Source: Chryseobacterium sp. 3008163 | Lineage (GTDB): Bacteria; Bacteroidota; Bacteroidia; Flavobacteriales; Weeksellaceae | DNA: 64,000 bases | Reading direction: 5' to 3' | Assembly (NCBI RefSeq): GCF_003669035.1 | Contig: NZ_CP033070.1 | Location: 1,550,001-1,614,000 of the forward strand | Shown here: in pieces, positions 13,910 through 17,043 of the stretch | Layout of the letters: the number at the start of each line of letters is the position of its first letter | Numbering within the stretch: position 1 is the stretch's first letter | Notes under the pieces: generated by a model | Database searches by the model: none | Seen by the model: the letters and a program-made list of their open reading frames with translations, nothing else | What the model was told of the DNA's origin: nothing | Position numbers and translations under genes: made by a program

Positions 13910-14674
13910 TTAACCACCTTTGATTACTTTAAACTCGATCCCGTTAATTTGTTTGTATTGCGGGCTTGAAGCACCGAAGATACTTTTCACATACTGCTTT
14001 ATTTCTTTGGAAGTTTGCACCAATCCTGAAAGCGGATTGTACAAAAACTGATTTCTTTCAAGCATTGCATTGCTGTACTGTGTGTAAGAGTCTATCAGTT
14101 CCTGGTTTTTGGTCTGCATATCAGAAAGTTTGTCTTGCAGTGACTTTACTTTCAAATGATTCTCATTAGGATTGTAAGATGAGCTCTGTACCAAAATCTC
14201 AATGATCGACGAAAAATGTTCTACCATTTTATCATACGACTGCTGAGAGGTAGAGATTGTTTTTGCTGTCTCAGGCTGTGAATCTTCTGCTGAAGCCGAT
14301 GCCTTTTTTGCCGTTGTCCCCTGCAGTTTTTTGTTCATATTTTTCAAATTATTAATCCCTAGCTGTTCTACTCCCGCCACAGAAAATGCGTTTGAGATTT
14401 TTGTAGAAAGAGGCTTAAGGTCTGAAAAAGAATTTCTCCTGCTGTTAGTTGCATTGTCAAATGAAGTTTTTTGGGTAATTGTAGCATTCATTTTTTCCTG
14501 TGCTTGCTGTAAAAGCATTTGCAACTGAGGAATTTTAAGGGATTCTTTGGAGGGATTGTAAACTTCTCCGAAGCCTGTACAAAAGGAAATAAGTGACTGA
14601 AAGTTGGCTACATTTTTAGCATGACCAGTTTCACTGACAGATTTTTTAATGGGTGTTGTCATATTGTGTTTCAT
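13910..14674 (-). CDS. Hypothetical coiled-coil protein
   Basis: I do not recognise a named family for this 254-residue protein, although similar proteins ending with a FGASSPQYKQINGIEFK-type segment feel familiar from Flavobacteriia. It is polar and lacks a signal peptide. It has helical, coiled-coil-prone stretches around residues 45-65 and 160-200 (KSLQDKLSDMQTKNQELIDS), separated by an Ala/Ser/Lys-rich linker near 120-140. A perfect -7 element lies just upstream and leaves a leader of only about 8 bases. The stop codon is followed in frame by the heptad repeat stretch at 13652-13909, so the protein may originally have been longer. Confidence 0.7.
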   Translation of the reverse strand: MKHNMTTPIKKSVSETGHAKNVANFQSLISFCTGFGEVYNPSKESLKIPQLQMLLQQAQEKMNATITQKTSFDNATNSRRNSFSDLKPLSTKISNAFSVAGVEQLGINNLKNMNKKLQGTTAKKASASAEDSQPETAKTISTSQQSYDKMVEHFSSIIEILVQSSSYNPNENHLKVKSLQDKLSDMQTKNQELIDSYTQYSNAMLERNQFLYNPLSGLVQTSKEIKQYVKSIFGASSPQYKQINGIEFKVIKGG

Positions 14675-14807: not shown

Positions 14808-14837
14808 GAGATGCTTCGACTACGCTCAGCATGACAG
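14808..14837 (+). repeat. Dispersed short repeat, copy 1
   Basis: The unit GATGCTTCGACTACGCTCAG plus CATGACAG contains short complementary ends (ATGCT/AGCAT). A second copy lies at 14916-14945 and a diverged one at 32041-32079, all in non-coding DNA. Confidence 0.6.
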
Positions 14838-14915: not shown

Positions 14916-14945
14916 GAGATGCTTCGGCTGCGCTCAACATGACAG
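14916..14945 (+). repeat. Dispersed short repeat, copy 2
   Basis: Same unit and orientation as 14808-14837, with three substitutions (CTTCGGCTGCGCTCAACATG). It is preceded by an AT-rich stretch with TTTAGAAATTTTAGAATTTTA words. Confidence 0.6.
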
Positions 14946-15090
14946 AGGCTATAATTCGTGAGTAAATAATAAGATTTAATAAGATTAAGCGTACTTAAAA
15001 TTTATCTGATGAAAGCGTAAGTTTAAACAGTTATTTGGCTGAAAATTAAAATAAATTTCACGATTTTAAAAAATATTTTTATATTCGCAT

Positions 15091-15290
15091 CAGATTTTAA
15101 CGAAAAAATATAAAAGCGTAAGCTATCATATTGGTTAAAGAAAACCGCGAACTTTCTTAAAAAGACCAAATTTTGATAGGCTTACGCCCATGTTCCTAAA
15201 TGGGCGCGGGCGTAGTCTTTCTGGTCTTTGGGTTCTTCGCGGTACCTCTTTAACTGATTGGCTACTGCTCTGCGCCTTTCTTATTTTCGG
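15091..15290 (+). ncRNA. Candidate structured RNA with two pseudoknots
   Basis: Five long complementary pairs interlock. Helix A is 15116-15128 with 15174-15187 (13 bp, one bulge). A three-part central helix pairs 15134-15141 with 15247-15254, 15144-15151 with 15236-15243, and 15161-15168 with 15222-15229, each 8 bp perfect. Helix F pairs 15203-15207 with 15272-15276, and 15212-15217 with 15260-15265. Helices A and F each cross the central helix. A small hairpin CCAT/ATGG lies at 15188-15203. Upstream, TATATTCG at 15080-15087 is a weak -7 match, and T-rich sequence follows 15277. It has no coding frame. I see none of the signatures of tmRNA, RNase P RNA, 6S RNA or riboswitches that I know. 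Ends are approximate and the strand is inferred from the weak promoter. Confidence 0.6.
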
Positions 15291-15307: not shown

Positions 15308-15451
15308 TTAAAATAATACGTCACCTTCTGTCGCATTAGATATTGATATTTGCTCTAAAGAATTTAAAAACAATAAATGATATGAAAAAACATCAGAAAT
15401 TAAATTATAATCAATATTTACTTCTTTTAAGGTTTTCCCTATAGCAGGAGT
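15308..15451 (-). other. Possible gene remnant
   Basis: A 47-codon minus-strand frame reads like protein (TPAIGKTLKEVNIDYNLISD at its start, ending NATEGDVLF) but has no start codon. Together with the RNA candidate and the dispersed repeats it fills the 14675-15502 gap. Low confidence; it may be chance. Confidence 0.2.
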
Positions 15452-15502: not shown

Positions 15503-17043
15503 ATGAAAAAACTCTACACGAGTGCAGTTCTACTATGCACTGTCACAGTGTTGTATGCTCAGGATGTGGTATGGCAAAAAGATATTAAATCTTCTACTCA
15601 GGATTTTCTTTCGCAAGTCACCACAACAATCGATCAGCAATACCTCATTACAGGAAGTTCTATTCAATCGAAAAAACTTACTTCCGAAAACAAACAAAAT
15701 AACGGTTACGATTTTCATATCGTTAAATTGAATCAACAAGGTGAAGAAGTCTGGGAAAAATATTTCTCGGGACAAAACCATGATTTTCTCTCGGCAACGG
15801 TCACTACTCAGGAAGGTGGTTTTCTGTTGGCTGGAACTTCTTACTCCGGAAAAGGTTTGGATAAAAAGGATGATGCTAACGGCGGCTCAGATATCTGGTT
15901 GGTAAGAATCAACGAGTTTGGTGACGAGCTGTGGCAGAAAACTTTGGGAACTTTACAGGATGAGGAAGCCAGAGCGGTGGTTCAGACTACTGACTTTGGA
16001 TTTTTTGTTGCAGGGAATGTACAGAATGCACCGAAAGGTTTTGGGTCTAAAGATGTCCTGATCTCAAGAATCGATAAGAACGGAAAAGAACTATCTCAGA
16101 TTATTTTAGGAGGAAAAGGATTAGATGAAGTGGAGAAGATGATTCCAACTATTGATGGCGGTGCTTTGCTCGGAATTTATTCTAGAAGTAATGTTGGCGG
16201 TTCAAAGAAAACCGAAAACTTCGGGGAAGGAGATTTTTGGGTGGTGAAGCTGAGCAAAGACGGAAAAGTAGAATGGGAAAAGAACTTTGGAGGTAAAGGA
16301 GATGATCACTTAAGAACTCTTGCAATGACTTCCACAGGATTTATCGTTGGCGGAGAATCGAGATCAGAGAGATCCGGAAATAAATCTGTGGGCATTGAAG
16401 AAGGTACTGATATATGGTTGATTTCTCTAAATGATCGAGGTGAAGAACTTTGGCAGAAATCTTACAATTTTAAGAACAGAGATGTTCTGATGGGGATGAA
16501 TGTGATAAAAACCGGAGACGATAAAAGCTCGAAAGGAATTTTGCTTGGCGGTTATACTCAGGCAGAAGGGAGAATAGAATCTGATGATGAAACATTTTGG
16601 ATGCTTTATTTAAATTCTGAAGGCAACGAGCAATGGAGAAAGCATGTGAAGGGTGAATCCAGAAAAAAGAGGAAAGATTATCTGACATTAAATTAAACAG
16701 AGACGGTTCGATTATTTTGGCAGGAACGAGTGCTGAAGAGTTAGGAAAAGAGAACTGGAAAATCGTAAAGCTAGGTGACAAACAACTGGATCAATTGATT
16801 GAAAAACTTGACATTAAGATTTATCCGAATCCTGTTTCTGAGTACTGTTATGTGGAGATTGGGTTTGAATTCAAGGAAGCGGATATTACGTTGTATGATA
16901 TGGGCGGAAGGCAGCTACAAAGTCTTAAAACCAAAAATAAGGTGACTAAAATCAATACTCAGAATTTGATTCAAGGGGCTTATTTGGTGACTATAAAAAC
17001 TGATACGAATAAAACGGCGAATGCTAAAATCATTAAAAAATAA
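15503..17043 (+). pseudogene. T9SS-sorted secreted beta-propeller-like protein, frameshifted
   Basis: Two frames join into one protein of about 513 residues. It starts with a signal peptide (MKKLYTSAVLLCTVTVLYAQ). Repeats of the type SDIWLVRINEFGDELWQKTLG follow (about residues 20-390), suggesting a propeller-like fold. It ends with a type A T9SS sorting domain: IYPNPVSEYCYVEI, then an ITLYDMGGRQL segment, and GAYLVTIKT near the end. The frame breaks in the A6 run at 16663-16668; reading A7 gives KKEERLSDIKLNRDGSIILAG and restores the protein, so a single lost base is the cause. The product should be exported through the outer membrane by T9SS and anchored or released. The RHS genes follow 12 bp later, so it may be the first gene of that transcript. 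Confidence 0.75.

Follow-up and report, generated by a model that had tools for sequence, protein, structure and literature searches.

A conserved structured RNA with two crossing helices in Chryseobacterium sp. 3008163, possibly a leader of accessory genes in Bacteroidota

Bacterial riboswitches and attenuators with an intrinsic terminator precede a gene on the same strand, place one strand in two mutually exclusive helices and carry a GC-rich stem followed by a T-tract. EAR/epsC and put RNAs are structured leaders of long operons that act by antitermination. Complexes of nuclease-dead Cas12f and a sigma factor (dCas12f-sigma) start transcription under the guidance of an RNA, with a 5'-G motif and SusCD targets. 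According to the available part of PMC2864571, 6S-Flavo RNA (RF01685, model of 108 positions) is an RNA of Bacteroidetes, and the STAXI motif is a pseudoknot that often lies near integrase and other DNA-binding genes. The available part of PMC9723704 lists the conserved small RNAs Rfp11, 13, 15 and 18 of Flavobacterium psychrophilum.

A non-coding stretch of Chryseobacterium sp. 3008163 contains the gene for a folded RNA, about 190 nt long, that has two crossing helices. It resembles riboswitches and attenuators in all three features named above, but its terminator-like stem crosses a 24-bp central helix, its next genes do not belong to one pathway, and it has no known ligand. The likeness to EAR/epsC and put RNAs would be that of structured leaders, as far as a comparison through Rfam searches alone allows. 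Like 6S-Flavo, it is an RNA of Bacteroidetes. It shares a pseudoknot with STAXI, whose unit is, in contrast, repeated two or three times and listed for Enterobacteriales (available part of PMC2864571); the two are set apart by this description and by Rfam searches alone. The available parts of PMC9723704, PMC8632094, PMC11109978, PMC6429828 and PMC2864571 do not describe the element RNA. Its features in the window (the whole 64,000-nt stretch of DNA analysed) are the following.

15080..15087, + strand: promoter-like TATATTCG, of the form TAnnTT[TC]G (from enrichment upstream of the copies)
15091..15285, + strand: structured RNA (both ends predicted)
15116..15128, + strand: P1 5' arm (from alignment pairing counts)
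15174..15187, + strand: P1 3' arm (same basis)
15134..15168, + strand: three 5' arms of the central helix P2 (both alignments, helices 2-5)
15222..15254, + strand: three 3' arms of P2 (both alignments, helices 2-5)
15186-15193/15204-15211, + strand: local hairpin P4 (one strand in common with P3, two bases with P1)
15203..15217, + strand: P3 5' arm (both alignments)
15260..15276, + strand: P3 3' arm (both alignments)
15277..15285, + strand: T-rich, terminator-like tract after P3 (from T enrichment across the copies)

The helices named by the first-pass annotation are correct. All 24 pairs of P2 (15134-15141/15247-15254, 15144-15151/15236-15243 and 15161-15168/15222-15229) are Watson-Crick, and P1 (15116-15128/15174-15187) has 13 Watson-Crick pairs and one bulged base. 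P3, described as an 11-bp split helix, has seven pairs at 15203-15209/15270-15276 (one of them G-T); the continuation toward 15217/15260 is irregular, with two mismatches and two G-T among seven further pairs. P1 and P3 cross P2 from opposite sides, as had been claimed, and would thereby form a double pseudoknot. P4, which has an A-C at one of its eight pairs in the window copy, was missed, as were the promoter-like motif and three further copies in the genome. The element was also said to stand alone between nuo and a toxin island, whereas it is one member of a large family, found ahead of same-strand genes. A further ORF (254 aa, - strand, 13910-14674) lies between nuo and the RNA. A 28-nt repeat is present in two copies at 14810-14837 and 14918-14945 of the window (0 expected from 100 shuffles).

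When pseudoknots are ignored, RNAfold gives z-scores of -6.6 (+ strand) and -6.3 (- strand), and none of 200 shuffles is as stable as the native sequence on either strand. Because both strands are far more stable than their shuffles, the strand needed another kind of test. Homologues were aligned with MAFFT without reference to structure (24 distinct sequences, 48 pairs scored). Left out of this alignment are L036, a false match as judged by eye; L034, which lies at the same place as L061; and L027, L029 and L030, whose element is identical to that of L028 or L052. Cells changed on both sides number 142, against 47.5 in shuffles (which, here and below, do not preserve relatedness among the sequences) and at most 44 in slid versions. 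In the same alignment 87.1% of cells are paired (shuffles 75.6), 34 pairs are doubly changed (shuffles 20.8) and the covariation score is 0.385 (shuffles 0.181, slid versions at most 0.115). The compensatory changes for which the first-pass annotation had proposed a search are thus found in each of the helices that it had named, with doubly changed pairs in P1 (5/13), P2 (20/24) and P3 (9/11).

A second alignment of 99 sequences was built by a covariance model of P2 and P4, from which P1 and P3 are absent, but which aligns the P3 5' arm as part of P4. The copies came from 97 hand-chosen sources; at least one true copy, in L184, lies outside them. Here 89.8% of cells are paired, with a covariation score of 0.581 (shuffles 0.184, slid versions at most 0.095). 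The six-pair core of P3 is 98.5% paired with double changes in five of the six pairs, and P1 has double changes in 11 of 13 pairs. P1 cells are paired in 92.6% of cases in the 24-sequence alignment and 81.0% in the 99-sequence alignment. Among the non-Watson-Crick cells of the 99 sequences, G-T outnumbers A-C by 422 to 86, and by 199 to 52 in P1 and P3 alone; this excess indicates that the selected molecule is the + strand RNA.

The first-pass annotation could match the element to no known family. Consistent with this, no Rfam 15 family reaches its curated cut-off in the window, and a search over 14 divergent loci returned tmRNA twice and tRNA once, with nothing at the element. Nine weak matches, mostly to snoRNA families, appear at E-values up to 10. 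6S-Flavo RNA can be rejected as an identity, as RF01685 has no match at the element; its only match in the genome at E <= 1 is at G000:C1:636983-637087 (L063; E-value: 5.4e-6), under the family cut-off. The element is almost certainly a real, conserved family of structured RNA that has no Rfam match.

The matches listed in a DNA search against 59 relatives include clear homologues from the same genus and a second copy from the genome of the window, which holds three further copies in all. The P2 and P4 model matches at least 140 of 148 genus genomes (E <= 0.01) and at least 76 of 296 genomes of the order (E <= 0.01), 29 of these 76 being of the same genus and three (G278, G333 and G400) having E-values above 0.002 that may be due to chance. 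It also matches 52 of 395 genomes of the phylum (E <= 1e-4). A fuller search of 25 genomes gave 109 matches, with more than one copy in 19 of the 25. The RNA is found in named records of, among others, Elizabethkingia, Flavobacterium, Maribacter, Pedobacter, Mucilaginibacter and Sphingobacterium, as well as in metagenome assemblies titled Ignavibacteria. A scan with a family pattern found at least 118 loci; the model was applied to 47 of the 80 listed and matches all 47, which had themselves been drawn by that pattern. One locus (L160) has two copies 4.6 kb apart on a single contig.

Two signals lie near the predicted ends of the element. TAnnTT[TC]G occurs within 50 nt upstream of 69 of the 99 copies, against means of 4.9 in shuffled sequence (maximum 12) and 4.8 in random 50-mers of the upstream flank (maximum 10), and in 65 of these 69 it lies 17-24 nt ahead of the model start. 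In the part of PMC9723704 available, TAnnTTTG is the sigma-A -7 consensus of a Flavobacterium. At the other end, the T fraction at the first eight positions after P3 is 0.59-0.94 across the 99 copies (background 0.32), so that a GC-rich stem is followed directly by a T-run, as in terminator-attenuators. The P3 loop (42 nt in the window, 60 from the P3 core) is long and unusual for a terminator.

That P3 and P4 compete for one strand is a fact of the sequence; the function of this competition we infer. P4 cells are 97.3% paired in the structure-blind alignment and 97.4% in the 99-sequence alignment, the latter having been fitted to P4. On the structure-blind alignment P4 is far above its slid versions but little above shuffles, of which 28/500 reach its percentage paired, 18/500 its covariation score and 124/500 its two doubly changed pairs. 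Energies computed from the pairs as written out favour P3 over P4 in no more than 21 of the 99 copies.

Neighbouring genes were taken from ORFs of at least 80 aa called mechanically around the 99 copies. The next ORF is on the strand of the RNA in 96, while the upstream ORF is on the same strand in 35, on the opposite strand in 57 and absent within 700 nt in 7. In 22 copies the next ORF starts 40-80 nt away, and in 49 it starts 200-360 nt away. The near group precedes small proteins, mostly without a Pfam match, and the far group Rhs-type first genes, SusC/SusD and others. In many members of the phylum, relatives of the RNA precede genes for toxins, nutrient uptake and other accessory functions. 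Pfam was searched with 40 chosen neighbours and two Cas12f-like proteins from 676 ORFs. Eighteen of 30 downstream proteins (28 next genes and two second genes) have no match at 0.01; the others match SusC, SusD, Tae4, GmrSD, Eco57I methylase, TM2, sigma-70 and other families. This mixture does not fit a riboswitch whose next genes belong to one pathway.

In 31 copies the next same-strand ORF starts within 100 nt of the RNA, L146 and L152 having been moved out of this set by hand; in 22 of the 31, a complement of the P3 3'-arm hexamer, G-T allowed, occurs in the stretch after the RNA. Swapped hexamers give a mean of 9.8 (maximum 15), a soft control because most hexamers are alike, and shuffled stretches 1.3 (maximum 5). 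In the other 68 copies the complement occurs in 8 (swapped 6.3, maximum 11; shuffled 4.5, maximum 9). By eye, it often lies within a hairpin loop.

At SusC loci, a divergent ORF of 80-159 aa lies within 150 nt upstream of the RNA in 11 of 15 cases (L141, L158, L170, L171, L172, L174, L189, L191, L192, L196 and L199), and four of six such ORFs tested match helix-turn-helix families. TAnnTT[TC]G is found in 0 of the 15 gaps between RNA and SusC (shuffled mean 3.1). Dyads in the promoter region of the RNA vary between loci, as judged by eye.

We propose, with a probability of roughly 45%, that in most places the RNA is a leader with a conditional terminator before accessory genes. The model is as follows. 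The element would be transcribed from its own putative promoter, at the promoter-like motif, into a + strand RNA about 190 nt long. P3 and the T-tract would form a terminator, and P4, by pairing the P3 5' arm with the stretch that precedes it, would act as an anti-terminator. A signal acting on this putative switch would then let the RNA decide, in most locations, whether transcription continues into the next gene. The leader reading rests on the conserved P1, P2 and P3, the strand, the enriched promoter-like motif, the T-tract, the co-direction of the next ORF, the hexamer complements after the near-group RNAs and the SusC gaps free of the promoter motif. It is weakened by the modest P4 covariation, the energy balance of P3 and P4, the long P3 loop and the lack of a common pathway among the next genes.

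Alternatively, transcription may stop at the T-tract and yield an independent small RNA that acts in trans, in which case the downstream gene would be a mere neighbour, expressed from a promoter of its own. This is a serious though tentative alternative, favoured by the promoter-like motif and T-tract of the element itself and by the multiple copies per genome. Against it stand the near-constant orientation of the next ORF, the closeness of an ORF (within 100 nt) in 31 copies and the lack of the promoter motif in the SusC gaps. It is also favoured by the Rhs-type operons, which mostly have a dyad and promoter motif of their own. At the window locus the relevant features are:

15319..15333, + strand: dyad CGTCACCTTCTGTCG, operator-like, of the downstream operon (from a pattern across upstream regions)
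15345..15352, + strand: GATATTTG, one mismatch to TAnnTTTG, 11 nt past the dyad (read and aligned)
15503..16696, + strand: 397-aa first gene of the downstream operon, without a match in Pfam (ORF list, Pfam)

The larger ORFs after the 397-aa gene we take to be RHS/YD-repeat genes. The dyad pattern is present upstream of Rhs-type first genes in 19 of 22 regions with the RNA and in 14 of 20 without it (L333-L352, hand-chosen; in L339 a weak match to the RNA lies 1.4 kb upstream). The promoter motif occurs in 18 of 24 gaps at Rhs-type loci (shuffled mean 4.2), and its exact form TAnnTT[TC]G is absent from the gap between RNA and operon in the window. Dyad and promoter motif ahead of Rhs-type first genes, also without the RNA, possibly define a regulon. 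Among the 104 listed first-gene matches that contain the start (25 genomes, 109 RNA places), only 13 have the RNA within 600 nt upstream. The few first genes with the RNA, and the dyad and promoter motif proper to these loci, make the leader role weak at the window locus. Since the operon in the window seems to be served by a promoter of its own, the RNA there may be a separate small RNA, which is about as likely for this copy as a leader.

That the element functions mainly at the DNA level, as a target of the RNA-guided dCas12f-sigma complex, with the RNA secondary, is very unlikely. At 3 of 99 loci, genes for a sigma-like and a Cas12f-like protein do follow the RNA; the sigma-like gene is supported by Pfam at one of these, and the L152 Cas12f-like protein matches chain 9n9c, named 'Nuclease-deactivated Cas12f' (E-value: 1.1e-158). 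A pattern search found a guide-like RNA behind 13 of 14 distinct Cas12f-like genes (L146, L152, L195, L201, L202 and L204-L211, with L200 and L152 counted as one place), L203 being the miss. The last part of this guide-like RNA starts with (G)GCGTGGG[CT]T, and so, in a comparison by eye, does the common strand of P3 and P4 in many elements. However, the protein is found in 38 of 148 genus genomes and is absent from that of the window, whereas the RNA is in at least 140; the L195 protein as query matches none of 16 other chosen RNA-bearing genomes, and the compensatory changes favour an RNA. Nor is the element itself a likely guide of the dCas12f-sigma system: a different, guide-like RNA already lies behind the protein gene, and the protein is absent from 110 of the 148 genomes, so this cannot be the general role of the RNA.

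Least probable is that the element is mobile or an attachment site and that a recombinase acts on its folded single-stranded DNA. Element copies are dispersed, and in 6 of 99 loci a gene from one of two recombinase clusters ends 29-85 nt upstream (Pfam confirming a tyrosine recombinase in one case and a serine recombinase in another). However, no such gene lies so near in the other 93 loci, the G-T excess indicates RNA and the window copy has no blastn match in plasmid and phage collections.

To return to the conditional leader, a wider picture, unlikely in all its parts jointly, would be a phylum-wide class of double-pseudoknot leaders in which one pseudoknot arm is the terminator, serving as a common on/off module before unrelated accessory operons and often under a local DNA-binding regulator. 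In some genomes a dead Cas12f-sigma guide equal to the switch strand could, in addition, start transcription inside the element and so by-pass control by the RNA.

With compensatory change, presence in most sampled genomes of the genus, a scattered occurrence in the phylum and no Rfam entry, the element would represent a large uncatalogued class of bacterial RNA. Should it prove to be a leader switch, the way in which Bacteroidota control genes for toxins, nutrient uptake and defence would become directly testable at the level of RNA.
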